A stretch of DNA of 32,625 nt, taken from a virus. Position 1 is the stretch's first letter. Every line of letters starts with the position of its first letter. The position numbers and the translations under genes are program-made. The stretch spans positions 1 through 32,625 of IMG/VR virus record IMGVR_UViG_3300048597_000257. One strand, 5' to 3'. A model generated the notes under the pieces. The model did not search any database, was not told where the DNA came from, and saw nothing but the letters and a program-made list of their open reading frames with translations. This document shows, piece by piece, positions 6,233 to 14,705 of the stretch.

Positions 6233-6679
6233 ATGGCGGGCATTTCACCCGCTGCGGCGGGCGCGCGCATGGGTGAACCACTCGCCCTCGGCGTCGTCAC
6301 CGGCCGCGTGCGGGCCGAGCTGCTGCGCGAACGCGCCGGCGGGGAACCGCTGAAGCGCGCGTTCCACACGGTCGCGCGCAGGCTGGGGCTGTCGGCCCGC
6401 CGCGTGCGCGCCTTCCACCACGGCGAGGTTCCCGCGGAGGACGTGACGGCGGCCGAACTTCTCGCCGCCGACGCCGCGTTCCGCGCGGACCTGGCGGCGC
6501 TGGTGGCGAAACTCGAATCCGTCAGGGGGCTGATCGGTGGTGATGCGATGGATGGCCCGCTGGGCGGACTGGCGGGCGCGGGCATGGCTCGCGCGGGGAC
6601 ACCGCGCGGCGGCGAGGGCGGCGGCGTGGGCGACGCGCGCGACGCGGTGGCGGCGATGATCGTGGGAGAACGCGCATGA
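6233..6679 (+). CDS. Putative HTH protein opening the rightward operon
   Basis: This 148-residue product starts MAGISPAAAGARMGEPLALG. Residues about 28-62 (RVRAELLRERAGG, then FHTVARRLGLSARRVRAFHH) look like a helix-turn-helix in which ARRLGLSARRV is the recognition unit. A helical stretch follows (AAELLAADAAFRADLAALVA), then a Gly-rich, probably disordered tail. The ATG at 6233 has a GGAGGGG about 9 bases upstream; the ATG at 6269 is an alternative start. Its stop overlaps the start of the GcrA-like gene (ATGA at 6676-6679), so the two are coupled. A DNA-binding role is inferred from the HTH pattern only. Confidence 0.68.
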   Translation: MAGISPAAAGARMGEPLALGVVTGRVRAELLRERAGGEPLKRAFHTVARRLGLSARRVRAFHHGEVPAEDVTAAELLAADAAFRADLAALVAKLESVRGLIGGDAMDGPLGGLAGAGMARAGTPRGGEGGGVGDARDAVAAMIVGERA

Positions 6680-7473
6680 ACACCTGGACATCGGAACACG
6701 ACGCGCAGCTGCGCGCGCTGTGGGGCGAAGCGCACAGCTGCAATGAGATCGCGCGCCGCATGGGCATGACGAAGAATGCCGTGATCGGCCGCGCGCATCG
6801 GCTGAAGCTGCCCTCGCGGCCGTCGCCGATCAACGGGGATGGTCGGGCCTGGACGGCGGCCGAGGAAGACGACCTGCGCCAGCTGCGCGCGGCCGGGTGG
6901 CAGGTGCAGGACATCGCGCGCCGGCTCGGTCGGAACTTCCAGACGGTGCGCAACCGGCTGCAGCAGCTCGGCATCCGCGTGCCGGCGCCGGCGCAGCGGA
7001 ACGACGGCGTGCGCACGCTGGTGGCGTGCGGCGCGGCCGTTGTGGCCCGTGCACAGCAGAACAGCATCGGCGCGGCCGAGGGTTTCCGCACCCGCGGCGC
7101 CGAGGGCGGCGGGCGTCTTTCCGGGGCGTTTGGCCCCGCCGCCCACAGCGTCCCGGCCAGTGTGGCCGGCGATCCCGGCCCGGGGGGATCCCCGGGTGGC
7201 GCACCGCGCCGTCTCCCCTGCGGTGCGTCCGAGGCTTTGCCTTCCTCAACCCTGACCTTGCCGCCGGCGCTGTCGCAGGCGCCGGCGGTCCTTTGGTCGA
7301 AGGCATGCCGCTTCCCGCTGTGGGGGGATCGTGACCGGCCGGACCATCGCTTCTGCGATGCGCCGACGGCGCTTGGGTCCTACTGCGCCGAACATGCGGC
7401 GCGGTGCTACGTGCCGGCGCATCAGCGCACGCTGGGCACGATGGGGCGCACCGTGGGCTGGGGTGGGCGGTGA
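6676..7473 (+). CDS. GcrA-like cell-cycle regulator with doubled HTH module
   Basis: This 265-residue product has two signatures of the GcrA family. The N-terminal WTSEHDAQLRALWGEAHSCN, followed by EIARRMGMTKNAVIGRAHRL, matches the GcrA DNA-binding domain. The C-terminal CRFPLWGD (C211), RFCDAP (C227) and YCAEHAARCY (C237, H240, C244) match the GcrA C-terminal Cys-rich domain that contacts the sigma-70 polymerase. A second related HTH unit lies at 57-103 (WTAAEEDDLRQLRAAGWQVQ, then DIARRLGRNFQTVRNRLQQL), which ordinary GcrA lacks. A Gly/Pro/Ala-rich linker (about 104-205) joins the parts. Host GcrA activates promoters carrying CcrM-methylated GANTC sites, so the phage protein may redirect cell-cycle transcription or drive its own genes. 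That role is inferred; the family assignment is strong. Confidence 0.85.
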   Translation: MNTWTSEHDAQLRALWGEAHSCNEIARRMGMTKNAVIGRAHRLKLPSRPSPINGDGRAWTAAEEDDLRQLRAAGWQVQDIARRLGRNFQTVRNRLQQLGIRVPAPAQRNDGVRTLVACGAAVVARAQQNSIGAAEGFRTRGAEGGGRLSGAFGPAAHSVPASVAGDPGPGGSPGGAPRRLPCGASEALPSSTLTLPPALSQAPAVLWSKACRFPLWGDRDRPDHRFCDAPTALGSYCAEHAARCYVPAHQRTLGTMGRTVGWGGR

Positions 7474-7783: not shown

Positions 7784-8169
7784 TCATGGCCAGCGATCCA
7801 GTTGCGGCTGCCGGGGCGTCGCCCCGATCAGGCAAGGCCAGCGGGAGCAAGCGTCCAGACGCTCTGGCCCCGGCAGTCGCAGCCACGCCGGTCGAGATCG
7901 GCGCCGATGCCTTCGCCGAGGGCTGGCGCATCGGCCGCGCCGCGGCGCGCTTCGTCCTTGCCGTGGTCGAAGCGGAGGCAACCAAGCCCGCCGCGCGCGA
8001 TGTCATTGCCGATGCGCGCTGGCGCATCGATGCGCTGCCGCAGCCCGACCGCGCCATCGCGCTGCCGCGCGCCGATCGGCTGGAAGCCGCCATCCGCGCC
8101 GCGCTGGCGCTCAGCGCCGCCGAGCTGACGCCCGAGGCCGCGACCGTGCTGGAAGGCGCGCTGAAATGA
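7780..8169 (+). CDS. Hypothetical helical protein ahead of primase
   Basis: This 129-residue product starts MIMASDPVAAAGASPRSGKA. The first 45 residues look disordered and Ala/Ser/Pro-rich; the rest is helical (EIGADAFAEGWRIGRAAARF and LPRADRLEAAIRAALALSAA). The start follows the ATGA overlap with the upstream gene; the second ATG, two codons later, is equally possible. It overlaps the primase start by 4 bases. No known domain. It may be a small replication accessory protein, judged by position only. Confidence 0.68.
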   Translation: MIMASDPVAAAGASPRSGKASGSKRPDALAPAVAATPVEIGADAFAEGWRIGRAAARFVLAVVEAEATKPAARDVIADARWRIDALPQPDRAIALPRADRLEAAIRAALALSAAELTPEAATVLEGALK

Positions 8170-9209
8170 CGCGCCCCGCCGGACAATCCGCGCGCATCCC
8201 GGAAACGTTGATCGAAGAGATCCGGCGCGCGCTGCCGATCGAATCCGTGGTCGCGCGCAGCGTGCCGCTGAAGCGCCGCGGCGCGTGGCATACCGGGCTG
8301 TGTCCCTTCCACCAGGAAAAGTCGCCGTCCTTCTCGGTGCACCCCGCGCGGCGCACCTTCCATTGCTTCGGCTGCGGCGCGCATGGCGACGTGGTGGCCT
8401 TCGTCATGCGCCACGATGGCTGCACCTTCCCCGAGGCCGTCGCGCGCTGCGCCGCCGAATGCGGCCTGTCGGCCGACCTCGACACCGCCCGCGCCGCGGC
8501 GCCCTGGGCGCGCAAGCCGCGCACCGCTGCCTCCCCGGATCTCGAGCGCCAGCGCGATGCCGAACAGCGCAGCCGCGCCGCCTGGGGCATGTGGGACCGT
8601 GCGCAACCGCCGGGCGACGCGGTGCGCGCCTATCTGGCCGGGCGCCACCTGGCGCTGCCTGAATCCGCCCTGGTGGTGCTGCGCGAAGCCCGGCTGAAGC
8701 ACCCGGACACCGGCGATGCGCTGCACCCCGTCATGTTGGCCCGCGTTGATGGGCCCGATGGCACTTTCCGCGCCGTGCACCGCACCTTCCTGCAGCGCCG
8801 GGACGATGGCGGCGTAGGCAAGCTGGCGGGCGTGGAGAATGCGAAGCTGACGCTCGGGCCGTTGCCAGGCGGCGCGGTGCGGCTGTTCCCGGCCGCGCCG
8901 CACCTGGCGCTGGCCGAGGGGCTGGAAACCGCACTGGCGGTGCATGCGCTGACGGGCCTGCCGGTCTGGGCGTGTATCTCGGCCGAGATCCTGGCTTCCG
9001 TGCAGCTGCCCTTCGATGTGGGCCGCGTCACCATCTTCGCGGACCGCGACAAGCCCCGCCCGCCGCGCCACCCCGAGGGCCATGGCGTGGCGGCCGCGCG
9101 CGTATTGGCCGAGCGGCTGCGCGCCATGGCCGTGCAGGTCGACCTGCGCGTGCCGAACGCCCCGCTGAAGGACTATGCCGATGTGCTGGTGGCGAGGGTC
9201 GCGGCATGA
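8166..9209 (+). CDS. DNA primase: CHC2 zinc finger plus Toprim
   Basis: This 347-residue product has a DnaG-type zinc finger at about 44-80: C46-P-F-H49 with EKSPSFSV after it, then C67-F-G-C70 with GAHGDVVAF. This is the CHC2 pattern. The C-terminal Toprim domain spans about 245-345: LALAEGLETALAVHAL (catalytic-type E251), VTIFADRDKP (D293, D295) and the closing KDYADVL. At 347 residues it is shorter than bacterial DnaG (about 600) and lacks the helicase-interaction domain, as is common for phage primases. It synthesises RNA primers for phage replication and is followed, with a 4-base overlap, by the P-loop ATPase that is probably its helicase partner. Substitution of host DnaG is inferred. 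Confidence 0.92.
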   Translation: MTRPAGQSARIPETLIEEIRRALPIESVVARSVPLKRRGAWHTGLCPFHQEKSPSFSVHPARRTFHCFGCGAHGDVVAFVMRHDGCTFPEAVARCAAECGLSADLDTARAAAPWARKPRTAASPDLERQRDAEQRSRAAWGMWDRAQPPGDAVRAYLAGRHLALPESALVVLREARLKHPDTGDALHPVMLARVDGPDGTFRAVHRTFLQRRDDGGVGKLAGVENAKLTLGPLPGGAVRLFPAAPHLALAEGLETALAVHALTGLPVWACISAEILASVQLPFDVGRVTIFADRDKPRPPRHPEGHGVAAARVLAERLRAMAVQVDLRVPNAPLKDYADVLVARVAA

Positions 9210-11077
9210 GCGGGGCCAAGGTGGTGCGCCTGCACGGGGATGATGGCGGGGAGGGCTTCGACCAGTCCCTGCCTTCCGATGCCCCGGATGGGAAGGGGGG
9301 CAAGCGCCGTGGCGGTGGTGGCGGCGAAAGCCCCGCCGATGGCGGCGGCGAACGCTTCGGCGCCGTGGTGCCGCTGGGCGTGCGCACCAGGCGCGGGTCC
9401 ACCTGCTACGTGTTCCTGGATGCCGCGGGCCTCGAAACCACGCTCTCGGCGAAGGACATGCACAGCGCGCCGATCATCGAGGGCCTGTTCGGCGGGCGAA
9501 TTGCGCACCGATTCCTGTGCGAGCGCTGGCCGCATTTCATCCCGCAGCGCGACGACAAGGGCCGGCCCGTTCGCGACGATGATGGCAAGCCGGTGATGAT
9601 CCCGGCGGGATGGTCGGCGCGGGAATGCGGCGCGGACCTGATCTCGGCCTGCACGCGCATCGGTGCGGCCGACGATGCCGAGCTGCGGCGCGACGGCGTC
9701 TGGTCGGACGACAAGGGCGGCTTGGTCGTGCATTGCGGCCAGCGGATCTTCGCCGAGGACCGGGAGCATCGCCCCGGCCTGCGGCAGGGCAAGGCGATCT
9801 ACATCGCCGCGCCGCGTCGCGAACCGCCGGCGGAGGAACCCGCCAGCGCTGCGGAATGCCTTCGCCTTGAGGATGACTTCCGGCTCTGGACCTACGCACC
9901 AGCGATCGGGCCCTTCGCGCCGCAGCTGCTGATGGGCATGGTCGCCTGCGGCATCCTTTCGGCCGCCCTGGACTGGCGGCCGCACATGGCCACATGGGGC
10001 CCGGCCGGGGCGGGCAAGACCACGCTGGTGAACTTCGTGGCCCGCTGCTGTGGGCTTGAGGAAGCATCGGACGATGTGTCCGAGCCCGGCATCCGCCGCC
10101 TGTTCAACGCCCGGTCGGGCCTGATCCCGCTGGACGAAAACGAGGCCGCGGTCGCGCAGACAACGCAGGTGCTGAACCTCATGCGCGGCGCCAGTTCGGG
10201 CAAGGGCGCCATGGTGGTGCGCACCTCGCAGGATTCGGGCGTGGATGTGTTCCGCGTGGCGGGCAGCTTCTTCCTGGCGGCGATCAACCCGCCGCACCTG
10301 TCGCTCGCCGATTCCTCGCGCATCACGCTGATCCTGCTGCGCCGGGGCACGACATCCGAGGGGCGCAAGGCGCAGCTGGATGACGCGATGCTGCGCGCGC
10401 GGGCGGCCTATCCGCGTCTGCTGACGCGCCTGGTGCTGGGCTTCGATCGATACCGGCAGAACCTGGCCGTGCTGCGTGCGGCCGCGATCCGCGCCCATGC
10501 CACGGCGCGCAGCGCCGACCAGATCGCCGCGTTGCTCGCCGGCTGGCAGACCTTGACGCAGGATGAGCCGGTCGAGGCTGGGGATGCCGATCGCCTGGTC
10601 GAGCCGCTGGGCAGCTTCACGACCTCGGCCGAGGATGCCGAGGAAGAGGATGCCGGGCGCCAGGCGCTGCGGCACCTGCTCGGGTCCGTGGTGCAGGTGG
10701 ACCGCGAGCGCCTCACGGTCGCCCAGGCGGTCGCCGACGGAGTGGCGGCCATCCGAGCCTGGGCGCAGGGCAAGGGCAAGGACGGGGATTACGAGCGCGA
10801 GCTCGATGCGAAGCGATGGGCCAAGCGGCTCGGGTCGATTGGGCTGCGGTACCATGAGGCCCCGCGCCCCGGGATGCTCGTTGCGAACGGGGCGCCGGTC
10901 ATTGATGCGGCCTTTGCCGGCACCCCGTGGGCGAACAAGGCCTGGCAACGGCCGCTGCGCGAACTGCCTGATGCGATGGAGCCTCGAGGACCGGTGAAGT
11001 TCCGCGGCAATGCGGCCGCGCGCTGCGTGCACCTGCCCCTGACGCTGCTGCTGGGGGAGGGCGATGACGACGGCTGA
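9206..11077 (+). CDS. P-loop ATPase, probable replicative helicase
   Basis: This 623-residue product starts MSGAKVVRLHGDDGGEGFDQ. The start is set by the ATGA overlap with the primase. Residues 1-50 are Gly/Asp-rich and look disordered; 51-205 form a mixed alpha/beta N-terminal domain. The ATPase core begins near 225: Walker A GPAGAGKT at 265-272, Walker B-like LIPLDE at 306-311, and a following ARTS-like segment (MVVRTSQDSG, FFLAAINPP) with a likely sensor asparagine. Architecture and context (primase immediately upstream, DUF927/superfamily-III-like core) suggest the DNA helicase of the phage replisome. I cannot tell apart DUF927 and related AAA+ families by eye. The last 14 bases overlap a doubtful ORF starting at 11064. 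Confidence 0.82.
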   Translation: MSGAKVVRLHGDDGGEGFDQSLPSDAPDGKGGKRRGGGGGESPADGGGERFGAVVPLGVRTRRGSTCYVFLDAAGLETTLSAKDMHSAPIIEGLFGGRIAHRFLCERWPHFIPQRDDKGRPVRDDDGKPVMIPAGWSARECGADLISACTRIGAADDAELRRDGVWSDDKGGLVVHCGQRIFAEDREHRPGLRQGKAIYIAAPRREPPAEEPASAAECLRLEDDFRLWTYAPAIGPFAPQLLMGMVACGILSAALDWRPHMATWGPAGAGKTTLVNFVARCCGLEEASDDVSEPGIRRLFNARSGLIPLDENEAAVAQTTQVLNLMRGASSGKGAMVVRTSQDSGVDVFRVAGSFFLAAINPPHLSLADSSRITLILLRRGTTSEGRKAQLDDAMLRARAAYPRLLTRLVLGFDRYRQNLAVLRAAAIRAHATARSADQIAALLAGWQTLTQDEPVEAGDADRLVEPLGSFTTSAEDAEEEDAGRQALRHLLGSVVQVDRERLTVAQAVADGVAAIRAWAQGKGKDGDYERELDAKRWAKRLGSIGLRYHEAPRPGMLVANGAPVIDAAFAGTPWANKAWQRPLRELPDAMEPRGPVKFRGNAAARCVHLPLTLLLGEGDDDG

Positions 11078-11312
11078 TCCTGTTCCCGTTCCCGCGTTTG
11101 TTCCCTGTCGTGTTCCGTCCAAGCCCTTGATAAGGCCGGAAGGTTACGCGGTAACACGTGCGCGCACGCGTATAGGGCAATCGGCGGTCCCCCGTCGCAT
11201 TCTCCCTATAGAGAGGGTCGACATTCTTGTTACCTTGTTTCCTTTCAATCAATTCAATTGGTTAGAGGGAACAGAGAAGGGAACAACGGCGGGAACGGGA
11301 ACAGGACGGTGA
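11064..11312 (+). CDS. Doubtful ORF across the AT-rich island
   Basis: An 82-residue frame (MTTADPVPVPAFVPCRVPSK at its start, ending TEKGTTAGTGTGR) spans the candidate origin. For it: its ATG overlaps the helicase 3' end and its stop overlaps the next GTG start (GTGA). Against it: composition is low-complexity where the inverted arms are read, codon third positions in the AT-rich core do not follow the genome's bias, and no domain is seen. I think it more likely to be a by-product of the DNA element. Confidence 0.25.
   Translation: MTTADPVPVPAFVPCRVPSKPLIRPEGYAVTRARTRIGQSAVPRRILPIERVDILVTLFPFNQFNWLEGTEKGTTAGTGTGR
11079..11120. repeat. Left 42-bp inverted arm of TGTTCC-type repeats
   Basis: The arm starts CCTGTTCCCGTTCCCGC (11079-11095) and continues with further TGTTCCC and TGTTCC units. 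It is the inverted copy of 11264-11305: the outer 17 bases match perfectly and 34 of 42 match overall, without gaps. It begins 2 bases after the helicase stop codon. Confidence 0.8.
11264..11305. repeat. Right 42-bp inverted arm of GGAACA-type repeats
   Basis: It ends GCGGGAACGGGAACAGG (11289-11305), the exact reverse complement of 11079-11095, with two further GGGAACA units inside. It stops 3 bases before the GTG of the next gene, so it must also carry or overlap that gene's ribosome-binding site. Confidence 0.8.
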
Positions 11313-11860
11313 GCAAGCGACCGGACCGCCGCATCGTGCTCGATGAACTGCCGCGCCCCTTCGTCACCACGGAGGGCATGGCGGCGCCATACCGCCCTGT
11401 CACCGACGCGCCGCCCCCTGCGCCGACGCGCCGTCCCCTGCGGCGCAACGCGCTGGTGTGGCTGCTGTCCGAGGGCATCCTGCACCGCCACCAGGTGCAG
11501 GCCGGCCAGGAGATCGAGCGCATCTTCGCCGTGATCACGGCGGGCACTGGCGCCAGCCTGACCGCTCGCTACGGGCGAATCACCTTCGACCGGGCCGCGT
11601 CGAGCGACGACCTGCCCCCTGGGCTGCGCACCGCCTATGTCGACCGCTATGCGCCATGGCGCAGCTGGGCGGGGCGCATTGCCGTGACGCCGGCGAAGTC
11701 GCTGGCCGACCTCACCATCCTGGTCTGTGTCGACGATCGAGGGCCGCGCCAGGTGGCGGAGGCCATGCGCATGGACCATCGCACGGTGAAGCGGCGGCTG
11801 CAGGACAGCCTGCACTGGTACGCTCGCCATGCCGGGTGGGTCGAAGAAAGAAACGCTTGA
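11309..11860 (+). CDS. HTH protein, possible late-gene regulator
   Basis: This 183-residue product uses a GTG start at 11309 (reads MSKRPDRRIVLDELPRPFVT), with AGGACG just ahead; an internal ATG at 11378 is less likely because it would remove a well-biased N-terminus. Residues about 53-135 are helical (LSEGILHRHQVQAGQEIERI, then YAPWRSWAGRI). Residues about 142-178 form a sigma-region-4-like HTH (DDRGPRQVAEAMRMDHRTVK, then RRLQDSLHWYA). The overall pattern resembles the DUF6456-type phage proteins. It is the last gene before a terminator-like hairpin and the structural module, the place where late activators or antiterminators usually sit. That role is inferred. Confidence 0.72.
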   Translation: MSKRPDRRIVLDELPRPFVTTEGMAAPYRPVTDAPPPAPTRRPLRRNALVWLLSEGILHRHQVQAGQEIERIFAVITAGTGASLTARYGRITFDRAASSDDLPPGLRTAYVDRYAPWRSWAGRIAVTPAKSLADLTILVCVDDRGPRQVAEAMRMDHRTVKRRLQDSLHWYARHAGWVEERNA

Positions 11861-11904
11861 CCCTCGCCCCGTTTCGAAAGCAAATAACTCTAGTGCTGCG
11901 AATC

Positions 11905-11941
11905 GCGCCCGGTCGGAACCCTCCGCCGGGCGCTTTGCGTT
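11905..11941 (+). terminator. Terminator-like hairpin before the late module
   Basis: GCGCCCGG (11905-11912) pairs perfectly with CCGGGCGC (11926-11933) around a 13-base loop and is followed by TTTGCGTT. It separates the early/replication operon from HNH and the terminases and could be the target of an antiterminator or a simple rho-independent stop. Confidence 0.65.
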
Positions 11942-11954
11942 GAGGGGTGCTGGG

Positions 11955-12395
11955 ATGGGCAAGCTGCGCGCGTTGCCCGCACGCCTCACGACTGCGCCGC
12001 CCCGTATCGCGGCGGCACCTGTGACCGCCAGCTCAGGCTTCGTTCGTCGAGACGGGCGCAGCAGCACCGCAAGGGGATATGGCGCGGACTGGCGCCGAGT
12101 CCGCCTGGCGGTGCTGGCAAGCGAACCGCTGTGCCGCATCTGCGAGGCCGTAGGCCGCGTGACGGCCGCAACCGAAGTCGACCACATCGAACCGTTCCAG
12201 GGCATCGAGGATCCGCTACGCCTGGCCGTGGCGAACCTTCGCCCGCTGTGCCGGCCATGCCACCTCGCGCGCACTGCCCGCCAGGCGACTGGCGGTGGCC
12301 AAGGCGTTCAGGGAGGGGGTGCCTCAATCTCTGGGCAATCGACTGGCCGGGACCGCGTCCCCCCGCACGCGGAGGTTTTTTCCGGGGGCGAGTGA
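11955..12395 (+). CDS. HNH endonuclease linked to packaging
   Basis: This 146-residue product starts MGKLRALPARLTTAPPRIAA; GAGGGG precedes the ATG. The HNH core is clear: C-R-I-C in EPLCRICEAVG, then EVDHIEPFQG, then an asparagine-containing segment (LRLAVANLRPL) and C-R-P-C-H. The paired Cys-x2-Cys motifs bind the structural zinc, and the DH supplies the catalytic metal ligand. In HK97-like phages an HNH protein directly upstream of the terminase genes aids cos cleavage. The last 35 residues are low in conserved features and overlap a T6 tract (12376-12381). A longer start at 11829 exists in frame but would overlap the preceding gene and the hairpin. Confidence 0.9.
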   Translation: MGKLRALPARLTTAPPRIAAAPVTASSGFVRRDGRSSTARGYGADWRRVRLAVLASEPLCRICEAVGRVTAATEVDHIEPFQGIEDPLRLAVANLRPLCRPCHLARTARQATGGGQGVQGGGASISGQSTGRDRVPPHAEVFSGGE

Positions 12396-12413
12396 TCCGC
12401 CGGAGAGGAAGAA

Positions 12414-13016
12414 ATGGAACGCAGGCCGCCAGGGCGACCAGCGCACCAGCCGACTGACGCGACGCGTGCGCAGGTCGAGGGCCTGGTGCGCGAGGGGAAG
12501 ACGCTGAAGGAGATCGCGCAGGCGATCGGTCTGTCGATCCCCACGCTGCGCGCCCACTACTCGATCGAGCTGAAGGCTGAGCGGCCTCAGATAAGTTTTC
12601 CCTTCGCCGGTTCTGAGGAAGCGAAGCGGAAGGGGTCGAGCCGCGCCGGTCGGCCGGAGCATGTGCCCACGGAAGAGACCCGCGAGCGCGTCGAGATCCT
12701 GATCGCCGGCGGCATGCAGCAATGGCAGATCGCCGCCGCCCTCGGAATTAGCGAGCCGGTGCTGCGGGACCGCTACGCGGCCGAGCTCGACGCCGGCCGG
12801 TCGAAGAAGACGGCGCAGGTGATCGAGGCGCAGTTCAAGGCCGCGGTCGAAGGCGGCAACGTCGCTGCGCAGAAGGCGTGGCTGTCGCGCCCCTCCGCGC
12901 TCGAGGATGCGCCGCCGCCGCCAAAGGACGAGCCCCTGGGCAAGAAGCAGGCGGCGCAGCTCGCGGCGCTGACGGTGCACCAGGGCACCGAGTGGGAAAA
13001 CCTTCTGCCGAACTGA
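12414..13016 (+). CDS. Terminase small subunit with two tandem HTH units
   Basis: This 200-residue product starts MERRPPGRPAHQPTDATRAQ; AGAGGAAGAA gives a good SD. Two similar HTH units are visible: residues about 18-54 (EGLVREGKTLKEIAQAIGLS, then IPTLRAHYSIEL) and about 90-126 (ILIAGGMQQWQIAAALGISE, then PVLRDRYAAELDAG). Each is preceded by a similar GRPxxxPT sequence. Residues 127-165 are helical, probably the oligomerisation part, and the C-terminus is acidic and proline-rich before ending NLLPN. Small terminases recognise the packaging site and feed DNA to the large subunit, which starts 10 bases downstream. The tandem duplication is unusual; most relatives show one such HTH. Confidence 0.82.
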   Translation: MERRPPGRPAHQPTDATRAQVEGLVREGKTLKEIAQAIGLSIPTLRAHYSIELKAERPQISFPFAGSEEAKRKGSSRAGRPEHVPTEETRERVEILIAGGMQQWQIAAALGISEPVLRDRYAAELDAGRSKKTAQVIEAQFKAAVEGGNVAAQKAWLSRPSALEDAPPPPKDEPLGKKQAAQLAALTVHQGTEWENLLPN

Positions 13017-13025
13017 GGAAGCCGC

Positions 13026-14705
13026 ATGGCCTGGTCGCTCGCCGTGCCGGACTGGGAAGAAAGGCTCCGCCAGGGCCGATCCCTGGTGCCGCAGCTGCCG
13101 CTCGACCAGGCGCAGGCGGAGCGGGCCGTGGCCGTGTTCAACAAGCTCCGCTTGGCGGACGTGGAGGGCAACCCGACCCTGGCCGCGGCCGCCGGCGATT
13201 GGTTCCGGGACATCATCCGGGCCCTGTTCGGATCCTATGACCGCGCCACCGGCATCAGGCACATCCGCGAGCTGTTCTGCCTGGTGCCGAAGAAGAACTC
13301 GAAGACCACCTATGGCGGGCTGATGATGCTGCCCGCGCTGCTGCTGAACCTGCGGCCGCGGGCGAAGTTCATCTGCACCGGCCCGACGCAGGACATCACC
13401 GACCTGTCGTTCTCGCAGGTGAAGGGCGCGATCGAGCTTGACCCGGTACTCTCGGCCAAGCTGCACATCCGGGAGCACCTGAAGAAGATCCAGCACCGCC
13501 AGACCGGCGCCGAGCTCGAGATCATGACCTTCGACCCCAGCGTGCTCACCGGCCAGAAGCCGGCCGGCATCCTGATCGACGAGCTGCACGTCGTGGCGAA
13601 GATGGCGAAGGCGGCCAGCGCTCTCCGTCAGCTGCGCGGCGGCATGATGGCGACGCCGGAGGCTTTCATGGCCTTCATCACCACGCAGAGCGAGGAAGCG
13701 CCCGCGGGCGTGTTCCGCACCGAGCTGCGCCGGGCCCGCGCCATCCGCGACGGCCGCATGGAAGGCGACATGCTGCCGGTGCTCTACGAGTTCCCGGAGG
13801 CGATGCAGCGGGACAAGTCGGCTTGGACCGACCCGAAGAACTGGCCGATGGTCACGCCCAACCTCGGCCGATCCATCACGATCGACCGCCTGGTGCAGGG
13901 CTTCCAGACCGCGAAGGATCTGAGCGACGACGAGGTCCGGGTCTGGGCGTCGCAGCACCTCAATGTCGAGGTCGGCGTCGCGCTGATGACCGACGCCCTG
14001 CCTGGCGCCGAGTTCTGGGAGCGCCAGGCCGAGCCGGTGCTCACGCTGGAATCGCTGCTCGATCGCTGCGAAGTGGTGTGCGTCGGCGTCGACGGCGGCG
14101 GCCTGGATGACCTGCTGGGCCTCGCGGTGTTGGGGCGCGAGAAGGGGACGCGCAACTGGCTGCTGTGGCTGCGGGCCTGGGCGCATCCGATCGTCCTGCA
14201 GCGCCGGAAGGAAGAAGCGCCGCGGCTGCAGGACTTCGCCGCCGATGGCGACCTGCGCATTGTCGCCAGCGTCGGCGACGACGTCGACGACGTGGTCGAG
14301 ACCATCGCGCAGATCGACGCCGCCGGGCTGCTGTCTGCCGTGGGCCTCGACCCGGCCGGGGTCGGCGCCATCGTCGACGCGCTGGCCGAAAAGGGTATCG
14401 AGGGCGACCGGGTGGTGGGCATCTCGCAGGGCTGGCGCCTGAATGGTGCAATCAAGACGTTCGGGCGGAAGCTCGCGGACGGCACGCTGCTGCACGCCGG
14501 CCAGCCGATCGGCGCCTGGTGCGTCGGCAACGCGAAGGCGGAGCCGAAGGGCAACGCCCTGACGATCACGAAGCAGACCAGCGGCAGCGCGAAGATCGAC
14601 CCGCTGATGGCGGCGTTCAACGCGGTGGATCTGATGAGCCGCAACCCGGCAGCGGCGAACGGCGGCTCCTACCTCGCAACCTCGGACCTGGCGATCCTTG
14701 CATGA
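13026..14705 (+). CDS. Terminase large subunit (HK97/lambdoid-type packaging ATPase)
   Basis: This 559-residue product starts MAWSLAVPDWEERLRQGRSL; GAGGAAGCCGC precedes it. The N-terminal ATPase has Walker A VPKKNSKT at 87-94, adenine-contact region around 113-125 (AKFICTGPTQ) and Walker B ILIDEL at 182-187, followed by TTQSEE, the coupling motif. The C-terminal RNase-H-like nuclease shows VCVGVDGGGLDD (D356) and AVGLDPAG (D442) as metal-binding acidic positions, with further acidic residues downstream. The length fits the family. It translocates DNA into the prohead and cuts it. Coupled by ATGA to the portal gene. Confidence 0.95.
   Translation: MAWSLAVPDWEERLRQGRSLVPQLPLDQAQAERAVAVFNKLRLADVEGNPTLAAAAGDWFRDIIRALFGSYDRATGIRHIRELFCLVPKKNSKTTYGGLMMLPALLLNLRPRAKFICTGPTQDITDLSFSQVKGAIELDPVLSAKLHIREHLKKIQHRQTGAELEIMTFDPSVLTGQKPAGILIDELHVVAKMAKAASALRQLRGGMMATPEAFMAFITTQSEEAPAGVFRTELRRARAIRDGRMEGDMLPVLYEFPEAMQRDKSAWTDPKNWPMVTPNLGRSITIDRLVQGFQTAKDLSDDEVRVWASQHLNVEVGVALMTDALPGAEFWERQAEPVLTLESLLDRCEVVCVGVDGGGLDDLLGLAVLGREKGTRNWLLWLRAWAHPIVLQRRKEEAPRLQDFAADGDLRIVASVGDDVDDVVETIAQIDAAGLLSAVGLDPAGVGAIVDALAEKGIEGDRVVGISQGWRLNGAIKTFGRKLADGTLLHAGQPIGAWCVGNAKAEPKGNALTITKQTSGSAKIDPLMAAFNAVDLMSRNPAAANGGSYLATSDLAILA

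Follow-up and report, generated by a model that had tools for sequence, protein, structure and literature searches.

We propose that a tailed phage of Acetobacteraceae-type hosts begins its replication at the element filling the gap behind its helicase gene, and that this origin is fired by the phage's own self-loading helicase of the Cch/SaPI Rep type. We put the probability of this reading at roughly 0.86. The first-pass annotation had already suspected an origin at this place. That suggestion is now strongly supported by an array at about 30 homologous helicase loci, by a geometry that is kept among them, by an AT-rich tract, by the predicted fold of the helicase and by precedents in known systems. 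It is from this evidence that we infer both the origin activity and the identity of the protein reading the repeated words.

An iteron array between the helicase gene and the packaging genes

The window, by which we mean the whole stretch of 32,625 bp that was analysed, is the record of a virus, a tailed phage that has terminase, portal, capsid and tail-tube genes. The helicase start codon (ATG 9206) overlaps the stop of the primase gene, and the element takes up exactly the space left between the helicase stop codon (11077) and the following start codon (GTG 11309; Table 1). Its placement straight after the primase and helicase genes had been described correctly, as it adjoins the helicase stop. 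An HNH gene and the terminase genes follow at 11829-14705, with terminase about 1.1 kb downstream of the element. A Pfam search of the ORF at 11309-11860 gave no match. A PRPFVTT-like N-terminus as in this ORF recurs behind the arrays of two relatives (L005 and L065), and the gene downstream of the array looks different from it in L066, L093 and the phage MinM1. Upstream of the primase gene, at 6676-7473, the phage encodes a homologue of a GcrA-like cell-cycle regulator.

Table 1. Positions in the window of the candidate origin, its parts and the adjoining genes.
Feature	Position	Strand	Remarks
CHC2 zinc-finger/Toprim_3 DnaG-like primase gene	8166..9209	+	Pfam PF01807 E 2e-30, PF13362 E 5e-16; PHROG 510 DNA primase
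Candidate initiator helicase gene	9206..11077	+	623 aa; Walker A GPAGAGKTT, Walker B LDE; PHROG 21086, 35358; predicted Cch/SaPI-Rep-like fold
Whole candidate origin element (four iteron blocks, core, AT-rich tract; imperfect palindrome)	11078..11306	+	229 bp
Block 1, reverse	11081..11117	-	TGTTCCC 11081, CGTTCCC 11087, TGTTCCC 11099, TGTTCCG 11111; conserved in L005
Block 2, forward	11142..11156	+	GGTTACG 11142, GGTAACA 11150; inner spacing 8 bp
Alternating purine-pyrimidine tract, in core	11157..11174	+	18 nt; CGTGCGCGCACGCGTATA
Block 3, reverse	11228..11242	-	TGTTACC 11228, TGTTTCC 11236; inner spacing 8 bp
AT-rich tract between blocks 3 and 4	11243..11264	+	73% A+T; candidate duplex-unwinding element
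Block 4, forward	11267..11303	+	GGGAACA 11267, 11279, 11297; GGGAACG 11291
Downstream ORF	11309..11860	+	183 aa, GTG start; block 4 abuts start

The element holds about 12 iterons (10-12 words; GGGAACA/GGTAACA) and is ordered as block 1, block 2, core, block 3, AT-rich tract and block 4. The degenerate word GG[ATG][AG]AC[AG] occurs 10 times in its 230 bp; elsewhere in the record no stretch of that length has more than three, and the element itself is present once. What had first been seen at this place was confirmed. CCTGTTCCCGTTCCCGC has a single occurrence, at 11079, with an exact reverse complement whose last base is 11305; 34 of the 42 positions of the longer arms pair; and the core contains the palindromes GTTACGCGGTAAC (11143) and CGTGCGCGCACG (11157) together with TATAGGG (11171) and CCCTATA (11204). 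The tract of 34% G+C (about 11217-11270) is indeed the lowest-G+C 50 bp of the 32.6-kb record, whose average is 70.9%, and it encloses the AT-rich tract between blocks 3 and 4. The TGTTCC units that had been assigned to the arms are real repeats, but they belong to 10-12 words in four blocks and not to two arms: the arms first noticed are the outer parts of a larger array.

Within the core, the alternating purine-pyrimidine tract is longer than the longest such tract in each of 500 core shuffles, and tracts of 15-21 nt are found in L005, L064-L066 and L087. Possibly this alternating core is a left-handed tract. Blocks 2 and 3 of the window (11142-11242) share the variant GGTAACA, unlike the GGGAACA of the outer blocks, and in L005 the inner blocks share GGGGACA, unlike the outer GGGAACA. 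In these two elements inner and outer words look as if they changed as separate sets.

Related helicases, fixed geometry and changing words

The closest relative of the helicase (78% identity) is encoded on a contig of Neoroseomonas terrae (L005) and is followed by a palindromic element 72% identical to that of the window. A search of the host genome for copies had been suggested as a check, and in N. terrae the orthologue of the element is single-copy. Three other genomes of the N. terrae group (L064-L066) encode helicases of about 30% identity followed by elements of the same build with the word GCGGGACA. A helicase profile made from these five proteins (window, L005, L064-L066) led to 20 viral contigs and ten further genome loci. 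Arrays of 10-14 words lay directly behind the helicase stop at 20 of the 20 viral loci, several of which are near-duplicates, and at seven of the ten genome loci (L093-L098, L100). Of the other three, L092 runs into the contig edge once the first words have been read, L099 has a weak array and no array is present at L101; a word cluster near the L101 helicase was rejected as an array since it is GC-rich sequence from which the block pattern is absent. Altogether, about 30 helicase homologues (24-78% identity) carry an equivalent array directly behind the gene, and they come from Acetobacteraceae-group genomes, viral contigs and named Synechococcus and Bdellovibrio phages.

Clear arrays follow the helicase genes of Synechococcus phage MinM1 (TGTGAG) and Bdellovibrio phage phi1422 (GGTAACA), and in both complete genomes the array is the top word cluster. 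The arrays of Synechococcus S-H1, Pararheinheimera KLER1-1 and Acinetobacter Acjo_20 are less regular, that of Acjo_20 lying upstream of the gene. At the distant homologues of Bordetella PY223 and PBb001, and of ZRG1, Dolphis and Mwe-JY13, no array was found in the stretch read. The first-pass annotation had held that relatives with the same genes but no such element would speak against an origin; relatives of this kind do exist, but only as a minority (L101, several distant named phages and one paralogue). A second, distant helicase of N. terrae (L067/L104, contig 18) has no array directly behind its gene. This paralogue has its array about 2.4 kb from the gene, on the opposite side of the replication operon (L121 12300-12600, G001:C18), in a prophage-like region, and the array combines the word CATGACG with the same kind of alternating core. 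Because N. terrae holds both the L005 and the L121 arrays, two elements with different words coexist in one genome. An exact DNA similarity search of named phages and plasmids returned no related element because the word changes, and the relatives were therefore reached through helicase homology.

Across lineages the words were GGGACA, GGTAACG (L072), GTAGCCA (L093, L094), TGTGAACG (L095), TGTAACC (L096), CTGTAGCG (L097), CTGTGAGG (L098), GGTTACC (L100) and TGTCACG (L084), and all words within an element change together. Motif scores were mostly 122-175 per element versus a shuffled mean of 58-72 and a shuffled maximum of 91, with six mononucleotide shuffles per locus as the null. The geometry, by contrast with the word, is kept. 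In 14 elements all 45 inner spacings (blocks 2 and 3) measured 7-9 bp, and the outer spacings (blocks 1 and 4) had a median of 11 bp with 48 of 62 at 9-13 bp. Inner and outer spacings differed with a Mann-Whitney p of 5e-11, a value that is descriptive since the blocks had been placed manually on the basis of the motif scan. The spacer between blocks 3 and 4 contains 53-85% A+T in the relatives, and 66-85% in most of them. A kept geometry combined with a wholly changed word points to sites that are read by a co-evolving protein. Words were alike only above 60% helicase identity (Mantel p <0.0005 for both helicase regions); the identities of the helicase core and the C-terminal region correlate at 0.91, so that the two cannot be told apart as the region that tracks the word.

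These observations lead to a broader proposition, to which we would give even odds. The arrays would constitute a widespread unannotated class of phage origins in which the word is free but the layout invariant: four blocks, words spaced 8-9 bp apart in the inner and about 11 bp apart in the outer ones, and AT-rich DNA separating block 3 from block 4. Their 10-14 sites would have switched together several times, so that co-resident origins avoid cross-talk, and the C-terminal region of the helicase would amount to a readable DNA-specificity code.

Some further loci were noted beside these arrays. A single array in the KLER1-1 phage (L109 4620-4930) interleaves two different words, TGCTAAA/GTGCTAAC and GCTTACA, and may represent an intermediate or an origin with two words. 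Prophages found via the primase (L046 220-340; also L045, L047, L049-L054) contain three copies of TTGTTCCA, an AT-rich core and three copies of TGGAACAA, which is the build of block 3, AT tract and block 4, just before an integrase-like gene starting at about 358. A near-match in the pattern search in genome G022 was rejected as an origin because it turned out to be a CRISPR spacer. This spacer, TGTCCCGCTTGTCCCGCTGTCCCGCATCTA (L068, G022:C173, 2589-2618), sits in an array beside a 564-aa Cas12-like ORF and is identical over 30 of 30 bases to iteron block 2 of L066-type elements (also L071, L075, L083, L085, L086 and L089). The exact match to an iteron block shows that hosts have sampled the DNA of these elements.

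Predicted helicase fold, known systems and a proposed mechanism

The Walker A motif and the LDE of the helicase are conserved. A Pfam search assigned no family to the protein, and its PHROGs are listed as function unknown or 'DNA primase'. No match of the window helicase to DUF927 or Primase_Cterm/D5_N was seen at a Pfam E of 10, nor did the A2 helicase profile find any Cch/Rep chain at E 1; in both searches divergence could hide a true relative. An AF2 model based on a 15-sequence alignment of the window and locus proteins reached a mean pLDDT of 77, versus only 36 for a single-sequence model. Its best match among solved structures was SCCmec Cch (5DGK; Foldseek E 1e-7; VIA Z 16.4, rmsd 8.1), with 409 residues aligned across positions 54-623 and the C-terminal region included; the global TM-score to Cch was modest (0.40-0.47). 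MCM helicases came next, with Z of 14 and lower over about 250 residues, mainly in the ATPase core, and SaPIBov1 Rep (8TCH) ranked 16th in Foldseek. At the level of the fold, the model thus predicts an AAA+ helicase with the domain layout of Cch/Rep, namely an N-terminal domain, AAA+ and a C-terminal DNA-binding region. It is the predicted fold that provides this link to Cch/Rep, and sequence profiles give none.

SaPIs, SCCmec and P4 already illustrate the principle of an initiator helicase with iterons behind its gene. For both SaPI Rep and Cch2, the iterons bound lie immediately 3' of the protein's own gene and are contacted via the C-terminal domain; in the SaPI case Rep binds as two hexamers (PMC7581432). 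The present system resembles these in having a helicase gene with an iteron cluster directly downstream and an AT-rich region flanked by iteron sets, and in the predicted full-length fold match to Cch with SaPIBov1 Rep also matched. It differs from them in that no sequence-level match was found, that the helicase is found in tailed phages of Gram-negative hosts and cyanobacteria, that the primase is DnaG-like (CHC2/Toprim) and not AEP, and that the words are arranged in four blocks and follow two classes of spacing. P4 served as a positive control: its annotated crr type I iterons (GGTGAACA) come immediately after the alpha gene, and our word-cluster detector puts crr first in P4. As in the window, iterons in both orientations directly follow a helicase gene, and the word has the same G-T/G-x-A-C look. 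Unlike the separate primase and helicase genes of the window, alpha is a fused primase-helicase, and some relatives (phi1422) have a Toprim domain fused to the helicase. P4 further differs in that ori1 is a distinct site, some 4.7 kb away from crr, and that crr consists of two 120-bp direct repeats with five iterons each.

Iteron plasmid origins of the RepA/Pi/TrfA type and the lambda O/ori system also combine clustered short sites with a neighbouring AT-rich tract and are bound by a cognate initiator. Their initiators bind DNA and recruit DnaB but have no helicase activity of their own, whereas the gene next to the present element encodes a helicase. Searches of the open-access literature turned up the SaPI, Cch and P4 precedents and no description of such an array in these phages. 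As far as this literature shows, what is new is the phage family, the four-block layout with two spacings and the free exchange of words on a fixed frame.

Because of the Cch, SaPI and P4 precedents we favor a mechanism with a self-loading helicase. The helicase encoded upstream would be an initiator of the SCCmec Cch/SaPI Rep kind. It probably binds the roughly 12 iterons via its C-terminal domain, as two hexameric assemblies. By analogy, these would assemble to either side of the AT-rich tract that separates blocks 3 and 4, melt it and then become the fork helicase, and the adjacent DnaG-like CHC2/Toprim primase would prime the forks. Cumulative GC skew, which had been proposed as a check on the origin, did not bear it out, with no turn at the array in the window or in phi1422. 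The skew of MinM1 peaks about 1 kb from the array, where gene orientation confounds the signal.

Alternative explanations and implications

Could the element act as a hairpin, either a DNA cruciform or an RNA such as a terminator or attenuator, with the repeats as a by-product? The inverted symmetry is wider than first noted, as the extended arms (11078-11156 and 11228-11306) have 57 paired positions out of 79 and the element matches its own reverse complement at 69% over its full length (E 2e-9). Of the inverted repeats that fall within 300 bp, the longest reaches 17 in the record versus 11-16 in ten shuffled records. Single-strand DNA folding is strong (z -7.3 versus dinucleotide shuffles; 0 of 200 shuffles as stable) and, with the words fixed and the spacers shuffled, pairing beyond the words persists in the window (z -4.2) and its clade (z -1.2 to -4.3). 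Block 1, however, points one way in the window/L064/L072 clade and the opposite way in the L093-L098 clade, which has lost the extra hairpin and kept the words. In these relatives with block 1 flipped the words alone explain the fold, with little or no extra folding (z -0.2 to -2.3). The long inverted repeat is clade-specific because of this difference in orientation, and what is conserved is the words as a set rather than the hairpin. Moreover, the words change as one group, although base pairing by itself would impose no such coupling on direct repeats. A search for intrinsic terminators (GC-rich stem plus T run) found none, and Rfam gave no family above the gathering score and one sub-threshold match to a Giardia snoRNA. 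We consider a functional hairpin extremely improbable.

The element might instead be an operator or enhancer array whose words bind a regulator of the downstream late genes, the helicase or another phage protein, with the origin lying elsewhere. In favor of this, the downstream ORF begins immediately after block 4, replication genes give way to packaging genes at the array, and many iteron initiators also autoregulate. The array nevertheless stays with the helicase gene while the downstream genes vary among loci; the AT-rich tract and the pattern of inner and outer spacings fit an origin; the P4 and SaPI precedents are origins; and no sigma-70-type promoter was found in the region. We regard this explanation as unlikely in place of an origin, and regulation may be an additional role of the element, since block 4 touches the start of the next gene. 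The HNH and terminase genes that follow would equally suit a cos or pac packaging site recognised by terminase. Against this, the phi1422 array lies about 7 kb from the terminase genes yet directly behind the helicase, the L121 array is at the far end of the replication operon, and the P4 counterpart belongs to the replication region and not to the cos site, which leaves a packaging site very unlikely. Terminal inverted arms with similar flanks had also raised the alternative of a MITE or other mobile repeat. This alternative did not hold up: the phage and the N. terrae genome each contain one copy of the element, its gene context is the same in divergent relatives and its flanks are not an exact duplication, so the chance of a mobile repeat is next to negligible.

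If the element is an origin fired by its neighbouring helicase, both the origin and the initiator would be identified for many phages whose annotation gives neither, their helicases having no Pfam family or being called 'hypothetical' or 'primase'. Origins could then be found by a simple rule, a word in a dozen copies right behind the helicase gene. The relatives would provide a natural series of initiator-site pairs with constant geometry and variable sequence, suited to studying how an initiator changes its word without loss of function. This series would also bear on how phages that share a host keep their origins apart.
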